From positions 124,001 through 188,000 of the forward strand of contig JADFMN010000001.1 of the NCBI GenBank assembly GCA_022563855.1: a stretch of DNA of 64,000 bases, in the 5' to 3' direction. A program made the translations under genes and the position numbers. The notes beneath the pieces were generated by a model. It searched no databases and was not told the DNA's origin. It worked only from the letters and a program-made list of their open reading frames with translations. This DNA is from Armatimonadota bacterium. GTDB taxonomy: Bacteria; Armatimonadota; Fimbriimonadia; Fimbriimonadales; Fimbriimonadaceae. Of the stretch, positions 29,909 to 44,129 are shown one piece after another (the stretch's first letter is position 1; every line of letters starts with the position of its first letter).

Positions 29909-32896
29909 TCAGTCCGCCACGATGTTGACTAGACGTCCGGGCACAACGATCACCTTTCGCACGGTTTTTCCTTCGAGGTGTTTCTGAACGGTCGCAGATG
30001 CCTTGGCGCTGCTTTCGAGCTCCTCGTCGGACGCATCTGCCGGCATCGTGATCGTGTCCCTGAGTTTTCCATTTACTTGCACCGCAATCGTGATTTCTTC
30101 TGGCTTCGCGAGGTACTCGTTCGCGATCGGCCAGCTAGCCTCGTAGACGAACTCGCGATGTCCTATGTCGCTCCAGATTTCGTCGGCCGTATGCGGCGCG
30201 GCGGGCGACAGCACGAGGATCATGCTGTCCAGAGTTTCGCTTAGCGCGAGTTTCTCGTCGTCGCTAGGCTTTGTTGCACGTTTAAGAAGGGCGTTGATCG
30301 TATTGACGTGAGTCATGAGCTTCGCAATGTAGGTGTTGAAGCTAAACGACTCTATGTCCTTCGTTGCTCCTGCGATCAACTGGTGCGTTGCGCGTCGCAC
30401 ATCGCGTATGATGCCGTCCTTGCCGACAGAGTCGATCTCGCTGTGCCAGTCCGAGACGTAATGTTTCGCTAGTTCCGCTGCTAATTTGAAGACGCGAGAC
30501 AGGAACCGGGTCGAGCCTTGAATAGCTTCTTCCGACCACGTGAACGACTGCTCGAACGGAGCGACGAACAGTTCGAACACTCGGAGGCCATCGGCACCGT
30601 GTCTCTCGACCGCTTGTTCCGGAGTGACGACGTTCCCCTTTGACTTGGACATCTTTGCGTCTCGCCAAAACACCTCGTCCTCTGGTAGCTGGCGTGCTTC
30701 TTCTGCCGTTATTTGGATGCCATCTTCGCCGACCTTCAGCTGTTCACCTTCGCGCGGTCTTCGGTACGGAGTCGGTGCGAGCACCATGCCTTGGTTCATC
30801 AGGCGCGCGAACGGCTCTTTGACCTTCACATACCCCGCGTCGTACAGCACCTTGGTCCAAAACCTGGCGTACAGCAGGTGCATCACAGCGTGCTCCGCGC
30901 CGCCGACGTAGCAGTCCACCGGCATCCAGTGCTCGGCTGCATCGTTGCTCCACGCCTCGTCGTAGTTGTGCGGATCGCAGAAGCGAAGGAAGTACCACGA
31001 AGAGCAGGCGAATCCGCCCATCGTGTCGGTCTCGCGGCGACCCAGCCGACCGTCCGGATCGGTGACGTTGACGAAATCTGGGATGAGCGCGAGCGGGCCG
31101 GTCCCGTCATCGGGCGGCTCGTAGTTTTCGACGTCCGGAAGTTCGATCGGCAAGAGGTCGTCTTGCACCGCGTGCATCTCGCCGTCCTTGTCGTGGATGA
31201 TCGGGATCGGGCAGCCCCAGTACCGCTGCCGGCTGATGAGCCAGTCACGGAGCTTGTAGTTAGTCTTTGCCTCGCCAAAGCCGTTTGCGATGATCCAGTC
31301 TGAGAGGCTCTTCTGTCCGTCTTTGACGGTCATGCCGGTGTACTCGCCGGAGTTGATCATCACGCCGTCTTCGGTGGAGAACGGAAGGGATACGCTGAAA
31401 GCGGATTCAAACGCTTCTTCCGAAGTGTCCCCTCCCCCTTGGGGGAGGGTTAGGGAGGGGGTTTCACCGGTATCTGCCGCCGCCCCCTCTCCAGCTCTCC
31501 CCCAAGGGGGAGAGAGTCCCTCCGCGCCAACAGGTGCTATGACCGGCACGACGTCGAGCCGGTACTTCTTCGCGAACTCGTAGTCGCGCGCGTCGTGCCC
31601 TGGCACGGCCATGATCGCGCCGGTGCCGTAGCCCATCATTACGTAGTCGGCGATCCAGATCGGCACGCGCTTCCCGTTTGCTGGGTTGATGGCGTCGACT
31701 CCCGTGTAGACGCCGGTCTTCTCACGGTTCGTCGCCTGCCGGTCGATGTCGCTGAGCCCTTTCGCCTTCTCGCAGTACCCATAGATCGCCGCACTGTGCT
31801 CGGCGTCCGTGACCCCTATGATCACATTTACTAGAGGGTGCTCCGGCGCGAGCACACAGAACGTCATGCCGAAGATCGTGTCGATACGGGTCGTAAAAAC
31901 TCTGAAGGAGTGCTTCTTGATCGGCAATTTGGCTTCGAGCGCACCCAACGTTCCGCCGATCGCGGCAGCGGCTCGCTCAAACTCCGCTTGTCCCGCAGCA
32001 GCTTCAGCAGCCTTGTCGTCGAGCTTCGTCTTGATCTCTTCGATCTTCTCAGTGACGGCAGGATCGGCTGTCGCACCCTCAGCAGCGACCTCTGCTTTGA
32101 GCGCTTCGAGCTCTGGATCTGACCCTTCGTCCACTTGGCGACTGCCAGGCGACGGCGAAGTGGCCGACGCTCCAGCAGGCGACACAGCCAATGACATCTC
32201 GAACTCAAGCCCCACCGACCGACCGATCCAGTTGCGCTGCTGATTCTTGATCCCCTCCGGCCAGTCGAGATCGTCCAGATCATCGATTAGCCGGTCGGCG
32301 TACTCGGTGATCTTGAAGAACCACTGCGGGATGTTCTTCTTCTCGACAGGGTTGTCGCACCGCCAGCACAGGCCGCCGACGACCTCCTCGTCGGCAAGCA
32401 CCGTCTTATCGTATGCGCACCAGTTCACCGCCGCGTCTTTGCGGTAAGCGAGACCGCGCTCGAACAGCAGCTTGAAAATCCACTGCGTCCACCTGTAGTA
32501 CTGCGGATCGGAGGACTTGAACGACCGCGACCAGTCGAAGCCGATCCCGATCAGTTCCATTTGCCTCTTATAATTAGCGGCGTACTCGTCGATCATCGGC
32601 GCGGGGTGAACGCCCCTATTGAGCGCTTCGACCTCGGCGGGCAGGCCGAACGCGTCGAACCCCATGGGGTGCAGCACGTTGAACCCCTGCATGTACTTCA
32701 TGCGGCAAAGAACGTCGGTCGGGATGTAGTTGCGACAGTGCCCGACGCTCAGTCCGGCGCCGCTCGGATAAGGGAAGTAGTCGAGCGCGTAGAACTTCGG
32801 GCGGCCGTCCTCGTCGCGGGTGCGAAAGAGGTCTGCGTCTCGCCAGCGCTCACGCCAACGGGCCTCGAACTGATCAGGTTCATACCGCCTCCGCAT
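29909..32896 (-). CDS. leuS: Leucyl-tRNA synthetase with two in-frame insertions
   Basis: A 995-residue class Ia synthetase charging tRNA-Leu; usual bacterial length is ~800-880. The HIGH-type motif is in GLSVGHCRNYIPTDVL and KMSKS in DAKMSKSKGNVVTP. Editing domain landmarks VFTTRIDTIFGMTFCVLAPEHPLV and MGYGTGAIMAVPGHDARD are intact. Two insertions sit in or beside the editing domain. One, at residues ~232-325, is an Ala/Glu-rich coiled coil. The other, at ~460-489, is encoded by a palindromic repeat (EGLSPPWGRAGEG...PSLTLPQGGGD). Catalytic motifs being intact, the protein should be functional. A TAGAAT box ends 7 nt before the ATG. Confidence 0.97.
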   Translation of the reverse strand: MRRRYEPDQFEARWRERWRDADLFRTRDEDGRPKFYALDYFPYPSGAGLSVGHCRNYIPTDVLCRMKYMQGFNVLHPMGFDAFGLPAEVEALNRGVHPAPMIDEYAANYKRQMELIGIGFDWSRSFKSSDPQYYRWTQWIFKLLFERGLAYRKDAAVNWCAYDKTVLADEEVVGGLCWRCDNPVEKKNIPQWFFKITEYADRLIDDLDDLDWPEGIKNQQRNWIGRSVGLEFEMSLAVSPAGASATSPSPGSRQVDEGSDPELEALKAEVAAEGATADPAVTEKIEEIKTKLDDKAAEAAAGQAEFERAAAAIGGTLGALEAKLPIKKHSFRVFTTRIDTIFGMTFCVLAPEHPLVNVIIGVTDAEHSAAIYGYCEKAKGLSDIDRQATNREKTGVYTGVDAINPANGKRVPIWIADYVMMGYGTGAIMAVPGHDARDYEFAKKYRLDVVPVIAPVGAEGLSPPWGRAGEGAAADTGETPSLTLPQGGGDTSEEAFESAFSVSLPFSTEDGVMINSGEYTGMTVKDGQKSLSDWIIANGFGEAKTNYKLRDWLISRQRYWGCPIPIIHDKDGEMHAVQDDLLPIELPDVENYEPPDDGTGPLALIPDFVNVTDPDGRLGRRETDTMGGFACSSWYFLRFCDPHNYDEAWSNDAAEHWMPVDCYVGGAEHAVMHLLYARFWTKVLYDAGYVKVKEPFARLMNQGMVLAPTPYRRPREGEQLKVGEDGIQITAEEARQLPEDEVFWRDAKMSKSKGNVVTPEQAVERHGADGLRVFELFVAPFEQSFTWSEEAIQGSTRFLSRVFKLAAELAKHYVSDWHSEIDSVGKDGIIRDVRRATHQLIAGATKDIESFSFNTYIAKLMTHVNTINALLKRATKPSDDEKLALSETLDSMILVLSPAAPHTADEIWSDIGHREFVYEASWPIANEYLAKPEEITIAVQVNGKLRDTITMPADASDEELESSAKASATVQKHLEGKTVRKVIVVPGRLVNIVAD
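31429..31520. repeat. Palindromic repeat element inserted in frame in leuS
   Basis: Two local palindromes (CCTCCCCCTTGGGGGAGG at 31431-31448 and CTCTCCCCCAAGGGGGAGAG at 31495-31514) are also inverted copies of each other, together with AGGGAGGGGG and CCCCCTCTCC. The ~92 nt can fold into one long hairpin. Removing it would leave about 30 codons fewer in the editing domain. Confidence 0.8.
32134..32153 (+). repeat. 20-nt repeat shared with the region upstream of galE
   Basis: CTTGGCGACTGCCAGGCGAC differs at one base from 14245-14264. It lies within the first leuS insertion and is followed by further GGCGAC units (32151-32185). Confidence 0.6.
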
Positions 32897-32903
32897 GGCG
32901 CTG

Positions 32904-32909
32904 ATTCTA
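32904..32909 (-). promoter_or_regulatory. TANNNT box, leaderless-type promoter of leuS
   Basis: TAGAAT on the minus strand ends 7 nt before the leuS ATG. Confidence 0.5.
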
Positions 32910-32942
32910 TCTGAGTGCCAGCGCCAAACGGATCAATAGAGC

Positions 32943-34985
32943 CTAATTCTGCGGCGGTGGAATCCGTCGCCTGCTCACTGGCCTCTTCGCACCAGCTTGT
33001 TGCGCCCTTTGGATTTTGGCGATCGACCCTCGGTAAGCGACTTCGTACTGGTCGGCGTAACTTTGACCAAGTGCGTCGAAAGCCCGCCAGCCAATCTTGA
33101 AGTCTGGCTCGATCCAGCTGACCAACGTCGTCGCCGTGAGGCCATCCGCGAACCGGTAAGTGATCGTCCAGTACCTCTGTTTCACCGGCATGAACTCGTT
33201 GCAGACGAGGATTCCATCCCACCGCGCGTTCGATTTGCCGATCTCTGCGATCGCATTGGCGTAGGCCAATTCACCGACGGTCGATCTTTGAATGAACCGG
33301 CGTTCTTCGTTGCGACCTTGGAGCATGTCTTTCGACGCCGGCGCTATCGTTACTGCAAGTTCCGAGAACCTGTGTTGGAGTAGGTCGGTGACCTCGATTG
33401 GCGGACTTACTCTCGCCTGCCCTGGCAGGGCAGAGCGAATCTGCCCCTGACTGCCAATGGTTAACGTGTTGCTCCACGCGATGTTCGTTGTTCTCGTAAC
33501 TGGCAATCGACGAGTGAAAATATCCTGCCTGACCGAGTTGATAGCCGAGCCCGAAAGCTGGGTTTCCGTCACATCGCTTCCAGCAAGCGCGGTCAGCAAC
33601 ATCGACCTGGGCAGCGTAGAAAGCGCTTTGAAAGTTGAAAACTGTCTGGAGAACGCATTGATCGCGTTTCCCGCCACGCTCATGTCAAAGTAGCCCAGGT
33701 ACCCAGGCAGGAGCTCGGTCGAGCCCATAGCCTTGCGAGGAAGGTTGTTGATAAGTTCTAGCGGATTCAGATCCCCGGAGGCGCGCACGTTCTGCACCAA
33801 TTCGCCGAGTCTGCGCCTGTCCATCCTGTCCGATCTAGCCTGCGACGGCTGTATCGGCGAGAGGATCGTCCAGTCACCATCGCGCTGGGTGCGAAGGACT
33901 GATTTGTCGAGACTTTGCAACGCTGCCAGAGATCGGATGGTCGCGGCTCCAAAAACGTAGTTCCCGAGTGACATCGCTCTGTCGGGCAGGAGTGCGACCA
34001 GGTCACGGCCTTCGAGCCTTGCTGCTTCATTCAGTACCGGAGAGACGAATACTGACAGCGGCTCGACGGTTGCTGCGCTCATGATGAACTGCTCGACGCC
34101 CGCCTTGAGATTCGGATCTATCGCGAGGTATTTTGCTACGAACTGGGGGACGTCGGACGTCGGCGATTGCGTGAGCGAGGTCCAGAGCTTTGCAAACTCG
34201 CGACGGACGGGATCGAGAGCGATGACCACGCCTTCGCCGCCGCCATCAGGCGTAGCCGCTCGAGAAAACCTCTCGGTTTGAATAAGGGTGAACGAAGTGC
34301 CGGCGATGATGGCGCCGTTGGCGTCAGTCGCATTGATCGTGATCTGCACGTTGTTCCCGTTGTATCGACTGACGACATGCAGGTCCTGATAGGAACCGAT
34401 CTCAATCTGACTGTTCCTGTTGCGGCGTTGCCGATTTTGCAGCCAGTTCGTTCCTAACATTCCTGGCAGGCGACTGTCCAATCGTTTCTGTGCAGCCGTC
34501 GGAGAGACCGCGAATACCTTTACGGTCCAGACCGGCTGTGCAGCGATCTTGTCCAGGGGCAACAAATCCTTCATGCCAGGATCGATTCCCATGCGCTGCC
34601 AGGATCGCTCATAGCTCTTCAGCTGCCGCTCGAAAGACTCGCGCTTCGAACTGACCTCGGCCTTCAATTCCTCGGCGCGAAAAACCCTAGACGGTTCGAG
34701 CGTCAGTGCCCGGGCTCGCTGAATCCAATGAGAGGCCGTGACCTCCGCAATCTTTTCAAGAAGATCGGATAGGCGAACATCTGTGACCTGGACGCAGACG
34801 ATATCGCTCTTGAGAGCTGTGTCGGCGGCGTATTCGGTGTTGAACTCGCGATTGATCGCCGCGATCAGGTCGGGCACAGTCTGGGCCTCGGCTCTGAACG
34901 AGACGATCCTCTCTTGAGCTAGAGAGAGCGTGGGAAGCAGCAGAACCCCAAGAAGGATCACGCGTACAAACGGGCAACGTATCAT
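32943..34985 (-). CDS. Large exported protein with STN-like N-terminal domain
   Basis: A ~680-residue exported protein. The signal peptide MIRCPFVRVILLGVLLLPTLSLAQ is followed by an STN/secretin-type short domain at ~25-90 (RIVSFRAEAQTVPDLIAAINREF; VCVQVTDVRLSDLLEKIAEVT), as found in secretins and TonB receptors. The remaining ~590 residues show neither a secretin ring nor a beta-barrel that I recognise. They include a helical segment (SKRESFERQLKSYERSWQRM) and a basic Pro-rich tail (RPVSRRRIPPPQN). The start at 34985, not 35057, places the signal peptide correctly and avoids overlap with the divergent synthase gene. Function unknown. Confidence 0.7.
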   Translation of the reverse strand: MIRCPFVRVILLGVLLLPTLSLAQERIVSFRAEAQTVPDLIAAINREFNTEYAADTALKSDIVCVQVTDVRLSDLLEKIAEVTASHWIQRARALTLEPSRVFRAEELKAEVSSKRESFERQLKSYERSWQRMGIDPGMKDLLPLDKIAAQPVWTVKVFAVSPTAAQKRLDSRLPGMLGTNWLQNRQRRNRNSQIEIGSYQDLHVVSRYNGNNVQITINATDANGAIIAGTSFTLIQTERFSRAATPDGGGEGVVIALDPVRREFAKLWTSLTQSPTSDVPQFVAKYLAIDPNLKAGVEQFIMSAATVEPLSVFVSPVLNEAARLEGRDLVALLPDRAMSLGNYVFGAATIRSLAALQSLDKSVLRTQRDGDWTILSPIQPSQARSDRMDRRRLGELVQNVRASGDLNPLELINNLPRKAMGSTELLPGYLGYFDMSVAGNAINAFSRQFSTFKALSTLPRSMLLTALAGSDVTETQLSGSAINSVRQDIFTRRLPVTRTTNIAWSNTLTIGSQGQIRSALPGQARVSPPIEVTDLLQHRFSELAVTIAPASKDMLQGRNEERRFIQRSTVGELAYANAIAEIGKSNARWDGILVCNEFMPVKQRYWTITYRFADGLTATTLVSWIEPDFKIGWRAFDALGQSYADQYEVAYRGSIAKIQRAQQAGAKRPVSRRRIPPPQN

Positions 34986-35050
34986 GATGACGCCTATTAG
35001 GATAGACGCCGCGCGCGTATTCGGGTTCAGAGATAGCGCAGAATAAACGT

Positions 35051-35959
35051 ATGCCACTGATCGCCGAGGGTAAGGAGCGCTTGGACCGGTTCGTGGCCCG
35101 GATGATGCCCGACTACAGCCGGACTCGAATTGTCCGGGCGATCAAGGGCGGGGAAGTGACCGTCGAGGGGGAAGTGGCGACCATGCCCTCGCTCGAGCTG
35201 AAGACCGGCCAGGTCGTCGAAGTCGGTGAGATTCCGGAGCCGGAGCCGCTCAACCTGGAGCCGGCCGACATCCCGCTAGACGTGCGGTACGAGGACGACG
35301 ACATGCTGGTCGTCAACAAGCCTCGCGGTATGGCATCGCACCCTGCGCCGGGGCTCGGGCCGACGACGCTCGTCAACGCTCTGCTCGCTCGCTCTCACGA
35401 TCTGAGCGATGAAGGAGGTGGGTTTCGGCCAGGTATCGTGCATCGGCTAGACAAGGACACCACAGGCCTGATGCTAGTTGCTAAGAACAACTTTGCGCAC
35501 GTTGCTTTGGCGGATCAAATCCGGGACCGTACGGCTGGGCGGTGCTATGCGGCGGTCGTTGCAGGCGAGACGGACAAGGAGGAGTTCAGCATCGACGCGC
35601 CGATCGGCAGGCATCAAGGGATTCCGACGTTGATGACGGTCAAGCAGACGGGGAAGCCGGCGGTCACGCACGTTAGAAAGTTGTGCAGCGTCGAAGCTGG
35701 CTGGCTCGCCGCGTGCAAGCTCGAAACCGGGCGCACGCACCAGATTCGCGTGCATCTGTCGGTGTTCGGCTGGCCCATCAGAGGGGACGTCCTGTACGCA
35801 AAGCCGCCGTGGTCGAAGGGGCCGCTGCAGCTTCACGCCGGGCTGCTATCGTTCGAACATCCGCGGACGAAGAAGGCCTGCGAAGTGTACGTCGAGCCGC
35901 CGGCAGACTTCATTCATCGTGATATGATCGGAATTGAGGGGTTTAAACAATGGAAATAG
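35051..35959 (+). CDS. rluD: RluA/RluD-family 23S rRNA pseudouridine synthase
   Basis: A 302-residue enzyme converting uridines to pseudouridine in large-subunit rRNA. An N-terminal S4 domain (RLDRFVARMMPDYSRTRIVRAIKGGEVTVEG) precedes the catalytic domain with the invariant aspartate in GIVHRLDKDTTGLMLVAKN and the later LETGRTHQIRVHLSVFGWPI. The RluD assignment within the family is likely but not certain. It overlaps radC by 10 nt and leads a three-gene unit with radC and the translin-like gene. Confidence 0.93.
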   Translation: MPLIAEGKERLDRFVARMMPDYSRTRIVRAIKGGEVTVEGEVATMPSLELKTGQVVEVGEIPEPEPLNLEPADIPLDVRYEDDDMLVVNKPRGMASHPAPGLGPTTLVNALLARSHDLSDEGGGFRPGIVHRLDKDTTGLMLVAKNNFAHVALADQIRDRTAGRCYAAVVAGETDKEEFSIDAPIGRHQGIPTLMTVKQTGKPAVTHVRKLCSVEAGWLAACKLETGRTHQIRVHLSVFGWPIRGDVLYAKPPWSKGPLQLHAGLLSFEHPRTKKACEVYVEPPADFIHRDMIGIEGFKQWK

Positions 35960-36609
35960 AAAGAGACGGGGCGATCCATCGCGTCCAGAGCCGAGGCGTC
36001 GGTGGGGCTGGGCTCATCGATCTCTTGGCCGTTGTCCTAGCTCGCGAACCTGCCGACGTTGCAGCTTGCGAGGCCGACGCCCGTCGCCTGCTCCAACGGT
36101 TGGGGCCATCGCGCCTGCTGGAAATCAGCTCCGACGATCTTCGCGATTCATCAGGCCTCGAGCCGTTCGAAGCGCTGCAGCGGTTGGCTGCGATCGAGTT
36201 GGGCCGTCGGTCCTCAGAGGCCAGCAGCGGCAAGGCCGTCATCTTGGATTCCGGAGAGGCGGTGGCTGAAATGTTCAAGTGGCTGGAGCGAGAAAAGCAA
36301 GAACACTTCTGCGCGGCGTTTCTAGATTCTAAGGGTGTGCTTATCTCCACGCGGACGGTACACATCGGGACGGTCAACATGAGCGTCGTCGGGCCGCGCG
36401 AGGTGTTCCGCGACGCGATTCGCGAGAGCGCAGCGAGCTTGATCGTCGTTCATAATCATCCGAGCGGCGATCCGGAGCCGAGCCCGGAGGACATCTCCGT
36501 GACGAAGCGCCTGGCCGAGGTCGGCAAGATGCTGGATATCCCGTTGCTGGATCACGTAATCATCGGGCATGATAAGTTCGTCAGCCTGCAGGAGCGAGGA
36601 CACTTATGA
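35950..36609 (+). CDS. radC: RadC-family JAB/MPN protein
   Basis: A 219-residue protein. An N-terminal helix-hairpin-helix-like region (GVGGAGLIDLLAVVLAREP) is followed by the JAB1/MPN fold with the metal motif VVHNHPSGDPEPSPEDISVT (H-x-H...D). Long called a DNA repair protein, RadC's true role is unsettled. It overlaps the synthase gene by 10 nt and the translin-like gene by 4 nt (ATGA type), so the three are translationally coupled. Confidence 0.92.
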   Translation: MEIERDGAIHRVQSRGVGGAGLIDLLAVVLAREPADVAACEADARRLLQRLGPSRLLEISSDDLRDSSGLEPFEALQRLAAIELGRRSSEASSGKAVILDSGEAVAEMFKWLEREKQEHFCAAFLDSKGVLISTRTVHIGTVNMSVVGPREVFRDAIRESAASLIVVHNHPSGDPEPSPEDISVTKRLAEVGKMLDIPLLDHVIIGHDKFVSLQERGHL

Positions 36610-37238
36610 GCTTTCAAGAGCGTTGGAGCGCGATAGTTTCAAGCATCAAACCGGAGATGGACGGAAGGCACGAGGCTCGGGAGGCGGGGCTGCAGGCGTG
36701 CCGCAAACTGATCCAGGTTTCGTCGAGGTGCATTCGTCACATCCACCGACGCCAGTTCGACGAAGCAGAGGCCTTGCTGACCGAGGCAAGGGGAATTTCA
36801 AAGTCGGCAAGGGCGTCGATGCATCCTCACCCGGAGATCTTTTACGCCCCCTACCTGAAGGACGCCGAGAAGGAGATGGTCGAGGCAGCGGCGGTGCTGG
36901 CTCTCGTCCGCAAACAGCCGCTGCCGTCTCCAGATGATCTCGGGGTCGGCGCGGTCGCTTACCTGAACGGCATGGGAGAGGCGGCGAGCGAATGCAGGCG
37001 GTACGTGCTGGACGAGATGCGAATGGGCAGCCTCTCAGAGGCAGAGCGGCTCTTGGACCAGATGGACAGCATCTATTCGGAGCTCATCACGTTGGACTAC
37101 CCCGACCAACTCACTGGCGGATTGAGAAGGACTTGCGACGCTCTTCGCGCTGTGATCGAGCGAACGAGGAGCGACCTGACGATGACGCAGGTGCAGAGAG
37201 AGTTGATTGACGAACTGCGCGCGGCGAAGGGCGACTAA
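36606..37238 (+). CDS. Translin-family-like nucleic-acid-binding protein
   Basis: A 210-residue all-helical protein with translin family features. AREAGLQACRKLIQVSSRCI resembles the first helices. AVAYLNGMGEAASECRRYVLDEMRMGSL and LDQMDSIYSELITLDYPD, then TGGLRRTCDALRAVIERTRSDLTM, are the conserved C-terminal half, including the TGGLRR-type signature. Translins bind and in some cases cleave RNA or single-stranded DNA as octameric shells. Bacterial members are rare compared with archaeal and eukaryotic ones. Coupling to radC and a pseudouridine synthase hints at a nucleic-acid role. The nuclease acidic triad is not obvious by eye. Confidence 0.8.
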   Translation: MSFQERWSAIVSSIKPEMDGRHEAREAGLQACRKLIQVSSRCIRHIHRRQFDEAEALLTEARGISKSARASMHPHPEIFYAPYLKDAEKEMVEAAAVLALVRKQPLPSPDDLGVGAVAYLNGMGEAASECRRYVLDEMRMGSLSEAERLLDQMDSIYSELITLDYPDQLTGGLRRTCDALRAVIERTRSDLTMTQVQRELIDELRAAKGD

Positions 37239-37963
37239 AGCTCGAAGTCGCCTTCGCCCGGCGGTATGGGGCGGTCGATCGACCTCTTCGAACTGCCCTT
37301 TGCTTGGCCGCTGGCCGAAACTATGGATGTCAGCCAAGAGACGATGATCATTGCTGCAGGGATCAGCATCAAGGAGTTGCCCGGTGTTGCGCTGATGCCT
37401 GCAAGTCCCACGAGGCCTGAAATACCGTCGCTCGTCCCGAACAGCCACCCCAGTCCGAGGAGCCAGATCGCCATCAAAACTCCGCCCTGTGCACGCCTTC
37501 CAGAAACGATCTGACCGAGCCCGCAAAAGAACACCGAGAGGATGACCGCGGACTTTGCGCTTGCGTACTGCTCGGCCAATGAGTTGCTGATGGCTAGCGA
37601 GGACATGGATGATCCTCCGAGGATCGACTCGGCATACTTCGTTTCGTACGCGACTTCGTCCGGCTTCAGTTGATGCGCCAAGTAGTACGCTTTGCGAGCC
37701 TTGCTGTACTGCCCGCGGGCTTGAAACTCGTCACCGATGGCTGCCTGAACAGCAGCGGATCCGGGCGCGATTTCCGCAGCTTCCTTCAACAGGCGTTCGG
37801 CGGCGAGGTTTTGGTTGCGGATTTGAGCCAGGGAGGACTCTTGCAACAATCGCTCAGCTTTGGCCAAGTCTTCCTCCGACGGTGGATCGGGGAGCTGTGC
37901 CTCCTCCTTCACAACGCCTGCGGCCTCGTCAGGCTTCGGTTCTTGCATGTCGTCTGCGGTCAT
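37235..37963 (-). CDS. TPR and membrane-domain protein
   Basis: A ~242-residue protein. An acidic N-terminus precedes two TPR units (LAAERLLKEAAEIAPGSAAVQAAIG; SKARKAYYLAHQLKPDEVAYE) and three hydrophobic segments (SAVILSVFFCGLGQIVSG; GVLMAIWLLGLGWLFG; SLMLIPAAMIIVSWLTSIV). The SVFFCGLGQ...GRRAQGG pattern resembles TM2-like domains. ATG 37963 is chosen because the upstream ATG would overlap rsfS. Last gene of the ffh-to-rsfS unit; convergent 4-nt overlap with the translin-like gene. Confidence 0.72.
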   Translation of the reverse strand: MTADDMQEPKPDEAAGVVKEEAQLPDPPSEEDLAKAERLLQESSLAQIRNQNLAAERLLKEAAEIAPGSAAVQAAIGDEFQARGQYSKARKAYYLAHQLKPDEVAYETKYAESILGGSSMSSLAISNSLAEQYASAKSAVILSVFFCGLGQIVSGRRAQGGVLMAIWLLGLGWLFGTSDGISGLVGLAGISATPGNSLMLIPAAMIIVSWLTSIVSASGQAKGSSKRSIDRPIPPGEGDFEL

Positions 37964-37974
37964 CGCGCGCCTCA

Positions 37975-38316
37975 CTACTGGAGCGAAGGATCGACTCTCA
38001 TGGTACTCCATAAGGTCTCAAGATCATAGAACTGCCGCCTCTCCTCAAGCATGACGTGGAGGATCACGTCGCCGTAGTCCAACAGGAGCCATCCGCCGGT
38101 GGTCGCATCTCTGCGAGATGGACGAACGCCCTCCTCGCGCATCTTCTCTCGGACGCGCTCGATGATGGCGTTTGCATGGGTGTCGCTGGTGCCGGTACAA
38201 ACCACCATGTAACTCGTGATCGAGGTCTTCTCGTGTACGTCGAGGCTCTCGATATCCACTGCCTTCATGTCGTCCGCGTACTCGACGATTTTCGCCGCTT
38301 TTTCTCCAGCTGTCAT
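37975..38316 (-). CDS. rsfS: Ribosomal silencing factor RsfS
   Basis: A ~113-residue RsfS/Iojap protein that binds ribosomal protein L14 and blocks subunit joining under starvation. Seen: AKIVEYADDMKAVDIESLDVH, TSYMVVCTGTSDTHANAI, and the C-terminal WLLLDYGDVILHVMLEERRQFYDLETLW, all diagnostic. ATG 38316 lies 7 nt past the nadD stop with AGAGAG upstream; a TTG 36 nt earlier would lie inside nadD. nadD-rsfS is a common bacterial gene pair. Confidence 0.95.
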   Translation of the reverse strand: MTAGEKAAKIVEYADDMKAVDIESLDVHEKTSITSYMVVCTGTSDTHANAIIERVREKMREEGVRPSRRDATTGGWLLLDYGDVILHVMLEERRQFYDLETLWSTMRVDPSLQ

Positions 38317-38323
38317 GTTTGTA

Positions 38324-38914
38324 TTACTCTCTGTAGAGCTGTTGTTCTTCAATGTATTTTGCCACTTCTTTTGTCACGAGATGGTCGAAGTCCGACCCGT
38401 CGGGTATTGCGTCACGAATCATCGTAGACGAAATATCTTTGATTCGCTCGTCAACGACGTCTATCGACGATTGTACGTACTTCGGCAGCTGGTCTAGGAC
38501 GTTCCCTAGCTCCGTGCCGAAGCGTGCGACAACGAGCAGCCGGCAGATCTCCAAGAGCTTTTCCGGCTGCTTCCAAGACGTCATCGTGCTAAGGGCGTCG
38601 GATCCGAGGACGAACCAGTATTTCCCTGGCCTCACCTTTCTGAGCTCCTTGATCGTGTCGATGGCGAAGCTATCGCCGCCGCGAGTGATCTCGATGTCGC
38701 TAACGGACATTCTGGGCTCGCTTTCGACCATCGACAGCACCATCGCCAGCCTGCTCTGGGGACTCGTGTTCGACCACCTCTTGATCGGGTTCTTCGCGGC
38801 AGGAATCCAGATCAATTCATCGATGTCGAGAGCCTCAAGAGCCGCCTTTGCGATCGCCAGGTGACCGGTATGTGGCGGATCGAACGTGCCTCCGAAGACA
38901 GCGTACTTCATCAT
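38324..38914 (-). CDS. nadD: Nicotinate-nucleotide adenylyltransferase
   Basis: A ~196-residue enzyme joining ATP and nicotinate mononucleotide to deamido-NAD. Motifs: YAVFGGTFDPPHTGHLAIAK (nucleotidyltransferase HxGH), GDSFAIDTIKEL, WFVLGSDAL and the C-terminal ISSTMIRDAI (ISSTxIR). The start overlaps the obgE stop as TGATG, with a second ATG directly after it; translation is coupled to obgE. Confidence 0.95.
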   Translation of the reverse strand: MMKYAVFGGTFDPPHTGHLAIAKAALEALDIDELIWIPAAKNPIKRWSNTSPQSRLAMVLSMVESEPRMSVSDIEITRGGDSFAIDTIKELRKVRPGKYWFVLGSDALSTMTSWKQPEKLLEICRLLVVARFGTELGNVLDQLPKYVQSSIDVVDERIKDISSTMIRDAIPDGSDFDHLVTKEVAKYIEEQQLYRE

Positions 38915-40185
38915 CAGTCCCTGTACTCGAACTCCCACTCCCCGATCTTTACAGTGTCGCCGGCCTCGACGCCCAACTCTTGCAATTTGGATATCACGCC
39001 GATCTCCTGCAGGCGCCTGTGCAAGTACTCGAGCGACTCGGAGCTGTCCAGCTGCGTCATTGCGACCAACCTGGTCAGCCGGTCGCCCTTCACGATGTAA
39101 CAGCCGTCGTATGCACGAGCTACAGACCAGCTCGGATCGCGCCGCCGAGCGAACTCTGGCGAAAGGACGCTCGGCAGCTCCTCGCTGACGGCCTGTTCGA
39201 CTAGCTTCAGCATCGCGAAAATCAACTCCTGAGTGCCTTTACCCGTGACTGCGCTGATCGGGAAGATCTCGTTGTCGGACACCTTCTTTAGGCTGGCCAA
39301 AACACCCTCCCAATGCTCGCGCTCACAGACGTCGATCTTGTTGAGGGCGATCAGTATGGGGCGCTCCGATACTTCTGCCGAGTACAGCACGATCTCCGAG
39401 GTGACGAGTTCGAAGTTCTTGACCGGTTCTGAGCCGTCGATAGGGAAGCAGTCGACGACGTGCACCAAGACCTTCGTTCTCTCAACGTGCTTCAGAAACT
39501 GTATGCCCAGCCCATGCCCCTCGCTTGCGCCTTCGATCAGGCCGGGCATATCTGCCATCACGAACGATTTGCCTCCTGCCTGAAGGACGCCAAGATTGGG
39601 CGTGATCGTCGTGAACGGATAGTCGGCGATCTTAGGCTTTGCCGCCGTCAGGCTGCTGAGCAGAGTGCTCTTGCCGGCGTTTGGGAGACCAACGAGACCT
39701 ACGTCTGCTATGAGCTTCAGCTCAAGTCGCGCGATCCGCACTTCGCCAGGAGCGCCGTTCTGCGCGATCTTCGGGGCTTGGCGTACGCTGGTCGTAAAGT
39801 GCAAGTTGCCTCGACCGCCCTTACCGCCCTTGCAGACTGTGTAACGCATCCCGTCCACGCTTAGATCGACGAGCTGCTCGCCGGTCTCCTCGTCAGTCAT
39901 GACAGTCCCAACCGGCACGCGTATCGTGATCGACTCACCGTTGCGGCCCGACTTCGCACCGACTGCTTTCACGCCTGCACTTGCCGCGTATCTCTTTCTG
40001 AACCGCAGATCGAAGAGCGTGCGCAGGTGTCGGTCTGCGACGAGCACGACGTCGCCTCCTCGCCCTCCGTCTGCGCCATTCGGACCGCCCCTGGGCATAT
40101 GTTTCTCACGAAGGAACGACGCTGCGCCCTTGCCACCGCTGCCAGATTCAAACTCCAGTTTGAGCTCGTCGATGAACTGGCTCAA
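38914..40185 (-). CDS. obgE: Obg-family GTPase
   Basis: A 423-residue ribosome-assembly GTPase. The glycine-rich Obg fold (GSGGKGAASFLREKHMPRGGP; VSKGGKGGRGN-like) covers ~1-155. The G domain has GLPNAGKSTLLSSL (G1), the DMPGLIEGA switch (G3) and NKIDVCE (G4). A C-terminal OCT domain ends VKIGEWEFEYRD. Start overlaps the rimM stop by 4 nt. It usually follows rplU-rpmA; here it follows rimM. Confidence 0.96.
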   Translation of the reverse strand: MSQFIDELKLEFESGSGGKGAASFLREKHMPRGGPNGADGGRGGDVVLVADRHLRTLFDLRFRKRYAASAGVKAVGAKSGRNGESITIRVPVGTVMTDEETGEQLVDLSVDGMRYTVCKGGKGGRGNLHFTTSVRQAPKIAQNGAPGEVRIARLELKLIADVGLVGLPNAGKSTLLSSLTAAKPKIADYPFTTITPNLGVLQAGGKSFVMADMPGLIEGASEGHGLGIQFLKHVERTKVLVHVVDCFPIDGSEPVKNFELVTSEIVLYSAEVSERPILIALNKIDVCEREHWEGVLASLKKVSDNEIFPISAVTGKGTQELIFAMLKLVEQAVSEELPSVLSPEFARRRDPSWSVARAYDGCYIVKGDRLTRLVAMTQLDSSESLEYLHRRLQEIGVISKLQELGVEAGDTVKIGEWEFEYRD

Positions 40186-40712
40186 TCTACTTTCTCCTGT
40201 GCGGAGTCGGTCGGTCGGAGGCCAGGGATCAAGCTCACTTCGATCACGCCGCGCTCTAGGTCAACGTGTTTGATGAACGCCTTGACGGCCGGGATCAACG
40301 TCGCGCCGATCCGCAGAAGATCATGTGCCGGAGTGCGAACGACCTCGTCGACGACTCCGAGTTCGACGCCGTCCTCGACAACGGTAAGGCCGACGAGGTC
40401 CGCCGACAAGAACTCGTCTGATTCAAGGATGGGAGCGTCTTTGGCCGGAACATCCACGTACTTCCACTTTAGATTCTCAGCCGCCTCGCGCGTCGACACC
40501 CCTTCCAGTTTCATCCTCCCCTTCCCCCTGTACCAAGAGCAAGACTGGATCACGTAGGGGCGAGAATCGATCAATACCGTGCGACCTGCTTCAAACCGCT
40601 CAAGGAAATCTGTGAGCGGGTTCACCTTCACCGCCCCTTCCATCGAAAACGGTCCAACTATTCGCCCGATTGAAATCGTCTCTTCGTCTTCTGCCGGGCT
40701 CCGGCCGCTCAT
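40182..40712 (-). CDS. rimM: Ribosome maturation factor RimM
   Basis: A 176-residue 30S maturation factor that binds S19. The N-terminal RimM barrel has ISIGRIVGPFSMEGAVKVNPLTDF; the PRC-barrel follows with LVGLTVVEDGVELGVVDEVV and LLIPAVKAFIKHVDLE-like sequence. Length is normal. In most genomes trmD and rplS follow; here obgE does. It begins 4 nt after the khpA stop. Confidence 0.93.
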   Translation of the reverse strand: MSGRSPAEDEETISIGRIVGPFSMEGAVKVNPLTDFLERFEAGRTVLIDSRPYVIQSCSWYRGKGRMKLEGVSTREAAENLKWKYVDVPAKDAPILESDEFLSADLVGLTVVEDGVELGVVDEVVRTPAHDLLRIGATLIPAVKAFIKHVDLERGVIEVSLIPGLRPTDSAQEKVD

Positions 40713-40716
40713 TTTC

Positions 40717-40959
40717 CTAATCGTCTGTGATCACTTTGACGACAGCCCGAGTCTGCTCTTTTGCACCGGCTGCGCCAACAAGCTGCCGCACGCACGTGAT
40801 CACGCGACCCTCCTTGCCAATGACCCTTCCGACGTCGGGCGGCGCAACGCGGACTTCGAAAACCTTCGTTCCGCGATCGTCTGACTCTTCGACCGTCACT
40901 GCGTCCGGTTCTTCGACCAACATCTGGACGGCGGTCTCTACGAGGTTCTTCAAGCTCAT
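40717..40959 (-). CDS. khpA: KH-domain RNA-binding protein KhpA
   Basis: An 80-residue single-KH protein. LKNLVETAVQMLVEEPDAVTV opens the fold and the KH loop is DVGRVIGKEGRVITCVRQL (GxxG is GKEG). KhpA-type proteins bind RNA broadly and pair with KhpB in other bacteria. It lies in the conserved place between rpsP and rimM. TAATG overlap with rpsP couples translation. Confidence 0.94.
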   Translation of the reverse strand: MSLKNLVETAVQMLVEEPDAVTVEESDDRGTKVFEVRVAPPDVGRVIGKEGRVITCVRQLVGAAGAKEQTRAVVKVITDD

Positions 40960-41507
40960 TATTCGGACTTCTCACTCGATGGTTCGTCAGCGACAGGCGG
41001 CTCGACAGAGTTTTCCTCTGACGGCGCTGTCTCGGTTGGTTCTACAGGCTTCTCCGCCTCGGCGCGGGGTGCAGCCGGCGCTTCGGCCTCTGGAGGTGCC
41101 TCGGTTGGTGCTGCGGATGGCTCTGCTGGAGCGGCTTCGACGGGAGATTCCGCAGGAACGGCTGCTGCAGGTGCTTCCTGGACGACCGATTTCTTGCTCA
41201 TGGTCGCCGTCCGCTTATCGAGAAACTTGTACCCGCGCTCAGCTTTTGGCCTCTTGCCGAAGAACTCCTGCAACACGCCTTCTCTCTTGAGAAGGTAAGC
41301 AACGGTCTCTGTCGGCCGAGCGCCGGTCATCAACCAGTACAGCGCACGCTCCTTGTTGATTTTCACCTCTGAGGGCGTCTTTAGCGGGTCGTAAGTTCCT
41401 AGCAGCTCCTTGAACTTGCCGTTCCGCGGTGCCGTGCTCGGAGCAACCACGATCCTGTAGAACGGCCGGTGTCGGCAGCCCATTCTTCTCAGTCGAATCT
41501 TTACCAA
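40959..41507 (-). CDS. rpsP: 30S ribosomal protein S16 with long C-terminal tail
   Basis: A 182-residue S16. Residues 1-~85 are standard ([59 protein letters not shown]). The remaining ~95 residues are an Ala/Pro/Glu-rich low-complexity extension ([20 protein letters not shown]) with no recognised fold, about doubling the usual ~80-90 residues. The tail is strongly acidic and probably disordered, projecting from the 30S body. Operon: ffh upstream, khpA downstream. Confidence 0.96.
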
Positions 41508-41542
41508 GTGTTTTTCTTAAGCTCCTGTGCGTTTGCTGGCGG

Positions 41543-42868
41543 CTAGCGACGACGTCGCGTCTTCATGCGCTTTTCCATTTTTGAAAACTGCTTCATCTGC
41601 TTGCGCATCATGCCAAGCTGGCTGATCAAGCGGTTGATCTCCTCGGGGCTCGTTCCAGAGCCGGAGGCGATGCGCCGCTTCCGCGAGCCATTCAGTATAT
41701 CAGGATTCGACCTCTCGGCGGGCGTCATGCTCAGGATAATGGCCTCGACACGGGCCATTTGCCCTTCGTCTACCTGGTCTAGAGCCTCCTCCGGAATTGC
41801 CCCTGCCATACCAGGGATCATCTTCATCACGTTTTTCAGCGGCCCCATTTTCTTGATCATTCTGAACTGTTGAAGCATGTCGTGGAAGTCCAGCCTTCCG
41901 GATTTCAACTTCCTCTGCATGTCCAGGGCTTCTTCGACATCGACTGCCTGCTCTGCCTTTTCGATGATCCCCATGACGTCGCCCATGCCGATGATTCTCT
42001 CGGCTGTGCGGGTCGGGTGGAATTGTGCCAGCTCTTCTAGCTGTTCGCCTTCGCCGACGTACCGGACGGGAACTCCCGTCGCCGCTCTGACGCTGAGCAA
42101 TGCGCCGCCGCGAGCGTCACCGTCCATCTTGGTGAATATGGTGCCGGTGAGGTTGATGCTTTTGTGAAACGCGTCGGCGACGTTCACGGCCTCCTGCCCG
42201 GTCGAGGCGTCCACGACGAGGAAAACTTCGTGAGGGGAGATGGCGCCAGAGATCGACTTTAGTTGGCTCATCATGGCGTCGTCGATCGTGAGTCGTCCTG
42301 CCGTGTCGACGATGACCACGTCCTTGAAAAGTCGCTTCGCTTCTTTGATCGCTCCGCGCGCGATCGCTGTTGGGTTGCCGTTCTCCTCGCTGTAAACCGG
42401 AACGTCGATCTGCTCGCCCAACACCTGCAGTTGTTTGATCGCAGCCGGCCGCTGAACGTCGCAGGCGACCATGATCGGCTTCTTGCCTTTTTCCGCGAGG
42501 TGCTTGGCCAGCTTGGCCGCGGTCGTGGTCTTGCCCGAGCCTTGCAGGCCGCACATCAGGATCACGGTCGGCGGGGAAGGGGACCAGTTCATCGGCGTAT
42601 CCGACGTGCCCAGAAGCCTCACGAGCTCGTCTCGAACGATTCTGATCAGCGTTTGATCCGCGTCCAGCCCAGTGAAGACGCCCTCGCCGACCGCTTGCTC
42701 CTGAACGTCGGCGATGAACTTCTTGGCGACTGTGAAGTTGACGTCGGCCTCGAGCAGCGCAACGCGGATATCCCGCAGCATGGCCTTGACGTCGTCCTCG
42801 GAGAGGCGACCTTTTCGCCTTAAGCCTGCGAAAACGGAGGTCAGCCTGCTAGTCAGATTGTCGAACAT
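41543..42868 (-). CDS. ffh: Signal recognition particle protein Ffh
   Basis: A 441-residue SRP54 GTPase that targets nascent membrane proteins with 4.5S RNA. The N domain is followed by the G domain (GLQGSGKTTTAAKLAKHL; VDTAGRLTIDDAMM; TKMDGDARGGALLS) and a Met-rich M domain (FHDMLQQFRMIKKMGPLKNVMKMIPGMAG) with the RNA-binding SRKRRIASGSGTS loop. TACACT ends 10 nt before the ATG, implying a leader of only a few bases. First gene of the eight-gene minus-strand unit. Confidence 0.97.
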   Translation of the reverse strand: MFDNLTSRLTSVFAGLRRKGRLSEDDVKAMLRDIRVALLEADVNFTVAKKFIADVQEQAVGEGVFTGLDADQTLIRIVRDELVRLLGTSDTPMNWSPSPPTVILMCGLQGSGKTTTAAKLAKHLAEKGKKPIMVACDVQRPAAIKQLQVLGEQIDVPVYSEENGNPTAIARGAIKEAKRLFKDVVIVDTAGRLTIDDAMMSQLKSISGAISPHEVFLVVDASTGQEAVNVADAFHKSINLTGTIFTKMDGDARGGALLSVRAATGVPVRYVGEGEQLEELAQFHPTRTAERIIGMGDVMGIIEKAEQAVDVEEALDMQRKLKSGRLDFHDMLQQFRMIKKMGPLKNVMKMIPGMAGAIPEEALDQVDEGQMARVEAIILSMTPAERSNPDILNGSRKRRIASGSGTSPEEINRLISQLGMMRKQMKQFSKMEKRMKTRRRR

Positions 42869-42980
42869 TCGATCGCCGAGTGTACCGTTCGATAGGACAG
42901 ACGACCGGTCTAACGGAACGTACTTGAACGCCCGACGTTAAAGTAGGCGTAGTAAAGATATCTACGGGGGCAATAGTGCG

Positions 42981-43205
42981 ATGAGCGAACAGGAAAACAG
43001 CGCGGAACAGGTTGAAAACAGCGGACGTGGGCCGTGGGTTGCAATCTTGGCCCTGGCCGGTATTGTTGCTGGCGCGTACCTGTTTGTCCGGTGGAACGCC
43101 GCGCGCAACGCACAGCTCGGAGCGCAGGATCTGCTGGACGCCTGTGATAAGGCTGTCAGCAACCTAGAGAAGATCCTACAGGCCGAATCCCTCGCGGCAA
43201 GCTAG
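42981..43205 (+). CDS. Small single-pass membrane protein sharing an anchor module with the NHL protein
   Basis: A 74-residue protein. A hydrophilic N-terminus (MSEQENSAEQVENSGRG) precedes one membrane helix (WVAILALAGIVAGAYLFV), a basic stop-transfer (RWNAARNAQ) and a short amphipathic tail. The helix with its flanks is nearly the same as the C-terminal anchor of the NHL protein at 46981-48075, and the DNA matches over 91 nt (about 80% by eye). GGGGG lies ~15 nt before the ATG. Function unknown. Confidence 0.65.
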   Translation: MSEQENSAEQVENSGRGPWVAILALAGIVAGAYLFVRWNAARNAQLGAQDLLDACDKAVSNLEKILQAESLAAS

Positions 43206-43299
43206 AAGCCCTATCTTCTGATAAGATATATTATGACAAACTAGCCATTCCCGTTGGCTACCCTGCCGCCCGGCACTCCTCCAAAATCCCGCTTTAGGT

Positions 43300-43935
43300 T
43301 CAGAACTCCAAACGGCGTGGTAGGCCGTAGATAGGTGTCTCTGGAAAGAGCGCTACGTAATTCTCCGGGTATTCCTTCCTTCTGTATTCGTCAAGATCAT
43401 GCGGGTACAAGTCTCTTGCGCAGCCCGGAGGATGGCCATTACTCATTAGTTGCTGGCCGATGGCCTGCTCAAGCTTCATCCTAGCTGTCCGATTCTCCTT
43501 ATTGATTCTCTTATTCTTCGATGCTGACCAGCCAGGCAGAGGGATGATGAAGACTCGGAGCCGTGAAATCGAATCCTGAATGGACGCTTCGTAGGTTTCG
43601 CGCACAGCCTCAAACTCGGCACGAAGTTCCTTCGTATACTTGCGATAATAGGACTGCTTGATCCTCTCGAGCCGGCCATCCTGCCAGGCGTTCCAGTTGT
43701 ACAGCCCAAACTCACCGGTTCGGTACATACGCAAGTGGCTCTTCATTCGCTCGCTGAACGACTTTCCCGATTCTCCGATGTACCAGTGTACAAGCCACCC
43801 CCTGAAATCGACAGTTTGGATGTAGACGCATGGCAGTTCAGCATATTTGCACTCCAAGGCCTCGTTCGCAGAATACGGACCGTGTACTTCTAGAGAGAAC
43901 TCGTGCCCATCTCGGTAGGTGTTCAGCGGCTTCAA
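43300..43935 (-). CDS. GIY-YIG-like nuclease-domain protein
   Basis: A 211-residue protein starting at TTG. VYIQTVDFRGWLVHWYIGESGKSFSERMKSHLR matches the GIY-YIG layout in pieces: VYI for the first triad, WYIGESG for the second, and the helix ERMKSHLR with its arginine. A charged helical region follows (RKYTKELRAEFEAVRETYEASI). The C-terminal part ends PRRLEF. The catalytic Glu is not assigned, so nuclease activity is inferred. The start lies 5 nt after the DUF7662 gene stop, with AGAGGAGAA inside that gene, so the two are coupled. Base composition seems less GC-rich than its neighbours. Confidence 0.6.
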   Translation of the reverse strand: MKPLNTYRDGHEFSLEVHGPYSANEALECKYAELPCVYIQTVDFRGWLVHWYIGESGKSFSERMKSHLRMYRTGEFGLYNWNAWQDGRLERIKQSYYRKYTKELRAEFEAVRETYEASIQDSISRLRVFIIPLPGWSASKNKRINKENRTARMKLEQAIGQQLMSNGHPPGCARDLYPHDLDEYRRKEYPENYVALFPETPIYGLPRRLEF

Positions 43936-43940
43936 TTCGG

Positions 43941-44129
43941 TCAGGATGATTCTCCTCTGACGAATAATACGTACTTTGCTAGATCGACTTCACTGACCAA
44001 GAACCCTGCTCCCATCCAGGCATGGGCCTGTACGTGCGATCCAGATCGTTCGTTCTCCCACCAAGCACGATACTTGTACGCTGACTGGGGGAGGCCGCCA
44101 ACAAGATCGGACACTTGTTCGAATGTCAT
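43941..44129 (-). CDS. DUF7662-like small protein
   Basis: A 62-residue protein matching from memory the DUF7662 pattern: MTFEQVSDLVGGLPQSAYKYRAWWENE, then HVQAHAWMGAGFLVSEVDLAKYVLFVR. Such domains occur alone or joined to nucleases and other proteins in accessory regions; biochemical function is unknown. It is the first gene of a two-gene unit with the GIY-YIG-like protein. Unlike most genes here it has a clear Shine-Dalgarno sequence (AGAGG) instead of an adjacent TANNNT box, which fits acquisition from elsewhere. Confidence 0.7.
   Translation of the reverse strand: MTFEQVSDLVGGLPQSAYKYRAWWENERSGSHVQAHAWMGAGFLVSEVDLAKYVLFVRGESS

Follow-up and report, generated by a model that had tools for sequence, protein, structure and literature searches.

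The 64,000-nt stretch of an Armatimonadota genome analysed here (hereafter the window) encodes a protein of the translin superfamily that resembles TRAX, the catalytic subunit of C3PO, an RNA-degrading complex of animals and archaea, and not translin. Its gene (36606..37238, + strand) starts with ATG and specifies 210 aa, and it is recognised by homology to AfTrax of Archaeoglobus fulgidus, by the predicted fold and by the glutamates E90, E93, E125 and E129. On balance, we favour the view that the protein is a TRAX-type RNase that forms homo-oligomers, depends on metal and acts on short RNA, with fragments from tRNA processing as a possible substrate, and that it would need neither RadC nor, in this phylum, Argonaute. 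An earlier reading of the DNA from its sequence alone had described a bacterial translin-like gene tied to radC and to a gene for a pseudouridine synthase. Membership of the protein in a known family is well supported; the bacterial range of that family is wider, its active site stricter and its link to radC weaker than this sequence-only reading assumed.

The open reading frame and the two motifs that had suggested a translin, YLNGMGEAASECRRYVLDEM and TGGLRR, are all present in the translated sequence. In phmmer searches of PDB sequences, AfTrax matches residues 19-198 of the window protein with an E value of 2.7e-23, and NEQ131 of Nanoarchaeum equitans matches with 3.8e-10. It had been proposed that the C-terminal half fits translin; the superfamily match is real, but the match to AfTrax spans nearly the whole protein. 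A profile made from 36 Armatimonadota members (the phylum profile) finds AfTrax (E value 4e-42), NEQ131 (4e-17), human TRAX (4e-7) and fly TRAX (3e-5); none of the 8 sequences found at E <= 0.01 is a translin chain. Since the profile finds TRAX chains and no translin chain, the window protein is TRAX-like. Membership in the translin superfamily is thus borne out by profile comparison with AfTrax as well as by the predicted fold, and the term translin-like, correct for the superfamily, can be refined to the TRAX (catalytic) type.

The NCBIfam model NF011160 (PRK14562.1-5) matches the window protein with an E value of 2.7e-73 and 245.9 bits, which is under the curated cut-off of 291 bits for membership in this equivalog, and no match over the cut-off was found among the 61 genomes searched. 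The score for Pfam Translin (PF01997) is 13.3 bits, below the gathering cut-off of 25.9, which is a detection threshold and not a biological feature. At E <= 0.1 PF01997 matches 71 of 98 phylum relatives, the best of them with 2e-7. Pfam Translin alone would have missed the window protein. Moreover, the six NCBIfam models that match it (NF011156-NF011161) bear the name "haloacid dehalogenase superfamily protein", which is probably a naming error. Haloacid dehalogenases were considered and rejected as a family for this protein, because its model has helices only, in contrast to their alpha/beta fold, and because no such family is among its Pfam matches. The bacterial TRAX-like family is therefore hidden in the databases: the Pfam cut-off misses it and the NCBIfam name misleads.

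The AlphaFold2 model of the window protein, computed as a single chain, consists of helices only (pLDDT 97.5, pTM 0.91), and its top Foldseek matches are AfC3PO and NeC3PO. In VIA-align, the model superposes on AfC3PO with a Z of 24.8 (1.5 A over 190 residues), on NeC3PO with a Z of ~21 and on chain J of human C3PO, named TRAX, with a Z of 20.4. Full-length translins give 15.9-17.6, and unrelated helical structures give 11 or less. Structure prediction, which had been suggested as a check, thus returns the all-helical translin/TRAX fold and not an unrelated helical one.

AfTrax (AfC3PO; 3zc0, 3zc1) has the fold of the window protein and a similar length, is identical at about one third of the residues and shares all 12 residues that never vary among the 98 phylum members aligned: R25, R33, H47, D86, E90, E93, E129, R131, R132, D178, R181 and E185. 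It differs in carrying D at the site of E125 and comes from another group of organisms. NEQ131 (NeC3PO; 5jr9, 5jrc, 5jre) also has this fold, with the carboxylates E/E/D/E, but it is only ~20 percent identical, and several of the residues fixed throughout the bacterial family are absent from it. By analogy with archaeal and eukaryotic C3PO, we infer that the bacterial protein would have RNase activity and would assemble with itself.

According to an excerpt of PMC9753400, E126, E129, D193 and E197 of TRAX are needed for nuclease activity. E90, E93, position 125 and E129 of the window protein map onto these four residues, an assignment to human TRAX numbering that relies on how the motifs are spaced and on the alignment with AfTrax rather than on a residue-level alignment with human TRAX. 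All four catalytic positions are acidic, and E at the position of D193 is a conservative change. Of the 98 phylum relatives, 93 have E at position 125 and 5 have D. Forty loci of two other phylum-level groups were compared as well, 20 fetched from 82 Chloroflexota hits and 20 from 84 Actinomycetota-group hits; in them E is present at positions 90, 93, 125 and 129 throughout, and D86, R181 and E185 each differ in one locus. These loci were obtained by profile search and are therefore unbiased at position 125, whereas 80 loci found by a sequence pattern were not used for judging this position because the pattern demands E there. From these alignments, the bacterial family tends to have E where AfTrax and NEQ131 carry D. 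The AfTrax chains of 3zc1 and 3zc0 differ from D to A at the site of E125, which suggests that the depositors thought this site matters.

The preference for E is a counterpoint to the catalytic reading. It is possible, if rather improbable, that the protein only binds nucleic acid and has no nuclease activity, as is the case for eukaryotic translin by itself; it would then hold short RNA or ssDNA in the role of a chaperone or regulator. Translins do have the same fold, and most members carry E, not D, as the fourth carboxylate. However, the conservation of the carboxylates is as a catalytic site predicts, with three of them kept in all 98 phylum relatives, the fourth always E or D, and all four being E in the 40 loci of the other two groups. 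The phylum profile, which picks up chains of TRAX but none of translin, also argues for the nuclease.

The TRAX-like gene is widespread in bacteria. In a survey it was found in 128 of 151 Armatimonadota genomes and in 108 of the 116 good ones, a few of the matches being fragments. As a rule there is one copy per genome; the genome of the window has one match and no translin paralogue. In Chloroflexota, the phylum of the cultured carrier Herpetosiphon giganteus DSM 589 (locus L159), 82 of 151 genomes carry the gene, and in a group sampled around an Actinomycetota MAG (the Actinomycetota group) 84 of 198 do; a second survey of the latter gave 43/100 in a largely overlapping sample. One locus, L208, is from a MAG titled Acidobacteria, and this title is probably wrong, since the genomes sampled for its phylum are for the most part those sampled for the Actinomycetota MAG. 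A pattern scan confirmed at least 555 of at least 596 stretches, and the best 80 of the confirmed loci were kept. Loci of Chloroflexota and Actinomycetota are among the matches listed, as are Fimbriimonadia and Fimbriimonadaceae bacteria among the nearest relatives. Among 14 well-known control genomes, NF011160 has matches in three archaea only. The statement that translins are mainly eukaryotic and archaeal therefore needs refinement, as at least three bacterial groups widely carry proteins of the TRAX type. In the gene tree, the branches are too long for rooting the bacterial against the archaeal sequences.

A viral or plasmid origin of the gene was also considered. No match was found in 72,556 plasmid records, and none of the 40 pattern stretches in viral contigs is a relative, so this possibility was rejected. 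The family is chromosomal.

Previous work on such bacterial proteins reportedly concerned Chloroflexi. Translin-superfamily proteins of eubacteria are already in print (Gupta, Kale and Kumar 2012, J Mol Evol 75:155), and the Chloroflexi proteins reportedly treated there belong to the same family as the Chloroflexota relatives in our survey. The present data add Armatimonadota and the Actinomycetota group to this range and supply gene contexts as well as counts.

In the window, radC (35950..36609, +; 219 aa; PF04002 at 5.2e-42, TIGR00608 over its cut-off) lies directly upstream of the TRAX-like gene, and before it lies a gene for an RluA-family pseudouridine synthase (RluD-like; 35051..35959, +; 302 aa), a clear family member by Pfam and NCBIfam. 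The HNHPSGD stretch, which is intact in this radC, is presumably the JAB-type motif. The overlaps that had been noted are real: the TRAX-like gene and radC share 4 nt (ATGA), and radC and the rluD-like gene share 10 nt. All three genes look coding, since GC content by codon position follows one common pattern. A convergent ORF (37235..38011, −; 258 aa; weak TPR matches in Pfam) overlaps the TRAX-like gene by 4 nt at the 3′ ends and is outside the system. Further upstream, an ORF of 704 aa (32943-35057, −) has no Pfam match at E <= 1. An Rfam scan of positions 30000-44000 around the TRAX-like gene detected no RNA over threshold. The window has two tRNA genes, both distant from the TRAX-like gene: one lies at 14 kb, the other at 17 kb.

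The 4-nt overlap could mean that the protein and RadC act together, in repair or in RNA processing, as a module encoded by a functional operon, which we regard as unlikely. The arrangement does recur in relatives: co-directional radC is directly upstream in 20 of 151 Armatimonadota genomes, namely in 13 of 20 from the same family (f1) and 7 of 9 from family f24. In one f1 genome radC is 3.1 kb from the TRAX-like gene, and contig breaks in draft genomes may conceal a few adjacencies. Among the f1 loci fetched (n=17), radC is adjacent in 10, TPR-like and RsfS-like genes are present in 6 each, and an rluD-like gene stands directly before radC in 2. Among the f24 loci fetched (n=7), radC is adjacent in 5, and tblastn found no TPR-like, RsfS-like or rluD-like gene; the neighbour counts in both families depend on the reach of tblastn. 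Since the radC pair outlasts the other neighbours, a functional tie is possible within the clade, but not in general. The coupling to the rluD-like gene, for which the 10-nt overlap with radC speaks here, is rarer among relatives than the radC adjacency.

Other observations argue against such a module. Apart from the two families, a third one (f13, in which 11 genomes carry the TRAX-like gene) has the two genes tail to tail in 4 genomes. Families f1, f24, f8 and f33 form one clade of the gene tree with 98 percent support, and because both f1 and f24 belong to it, a single origin followed by several losses suffices to explain the pairing. Among the 151 genomes, radC is present in 105 and both genes in 93, while 35 have only the TRAX-like gene and 12 only radC. 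The two genes are weakly associated across these genomes (odds ratio 2.4, p 0.08, without correction for relatedness). In the control genomes, radC is found in 8 of 14, and of these only Methanosarcina acetivorans also matches the translin-type model. Finally, no radC match was found near the TRAX-like gene in the 40 loci from the two other phylum-level groups. RadC as an obligate partner is rejected on account of these loci and of the 35 genomes without radC. The sequence-only reading had seen in the overlap a possible general clue to the role of RadC and proposed a survey of the adjacency. The coupling in the window holds, but it is lineage-specific and confined to two families, and as a general clue it is not supported. 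The radC neighbourhood is probably a local arrangement, and the overlap in the window is most likely due to an operon that was passed down from an ancestor of its own clade.

Other gene contexts were found elsewhere. A gene for a PolyA_pol/CCA-adding-type enzyme is directly downstream and co-directional in 11 of 101 loci, which belong to families f17, f34, f35 and f36, with 17-161 nt between the matched parts; the type rests on one protein of the group matched to Pfam. These loci (L062, L067, L069, L071, L072, L074, L082, L089, L092, L095 and L100) are from one Armatimonadota clade, and a CCA enzyme query matched 0/40 loci in the two other phylum-level groups. Other clades have unrelated neighbours, for example 2-oxoacid oxidoreductase-like genes and glycosyltransferases. 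In 10 loci of five other families (L109, L111, L117, L120, L121, L123, L124, L125, L126 and L128), the three genes directly upstream are, as we take it, 2-oxoacid oxidoreductase subunit-like, and in 7 of the 10 a RecN-type gene (type checked for one protein) is found further upstream. Chloroflexota loci such as L156, L161, L163 and L172 show a conserved gene order around the TRAX-like gene. Upstream are presumably rnhB-, yraN- and thiamine-phosphate synthase-like genes, and downstream a membrane pyrophosphatase gene.

As a TRAX-type RNase, the protein would assemble with itself into a hollow oligomer, like archaeal C3PO. The carboxylates E90, E93, E125 and E129 would bind a divalent metal, and the oligomer may then cut short single-stranded or duplex RNA. 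A hypothetical substrate is the short RNA that remains when RNAs mature, chiefly fragments from tRNA processing. This hypothesis draws on the CCA context together with two reports, each known from a part of its text: TRAX genes are present in archaeal SepRS loci (PMC5424206), and translin-TRAX of Neurospora removes 5′ pre-tRNA fragments (PMC3834833). On the other side, the CCA context is confined to one clade. Excerpts of two further papers say that archaea have one paralogue, thought to be closer to Trax (PMC9246224), and that in N. equitans Trax alone degrades RNA (PMC9051087).

A role in Argonaute-dependent silencing, as for C3PO in animals, would agree with the kinship to human and fly C3PO subunits, but it is very improbable and is disfavoured as a general role because Piwi-domain genes were found in only 2 of 151 phylum genomes and none in the genome of the window, which with its single paralogue has neither the two paralogues nor the Argonaute partner of eukaryotic RNAi C3PO. 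Eukaryotic C3PO (TRAX plus translin; 3pja, 3axj) shares the TRAX-like catalytic positions and the fold with the window protein; in contrast, the genome of the window has no translin paralogue and the phylum in general no Argonaute.

In the literature examined, TRAX has been studied mainly in eukaryotes, and no paper on what a bacterial member does, or on radC with translin, was found in the literature searched, which mostly excluded subscription papers. The bacterial form, mostly single-copy and strictly conserved, with no translin and usually no Argonaute beside it, is a simple system for finding the ancestral role. Tentatively, and with more doubt than confidence, we suggest that this one-component C3PO is ancient and has been passed on mostly by vertical descent in lineages of Armatimonadota, Chloroflexota and Actinomycetota, where it would act as an RNase that removes by-products of tRNA processing. 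If this is true, animal C3PO would have acquired its RNAi role on the basis of an older enzyme of tRNA maturation, one that bacteria share.
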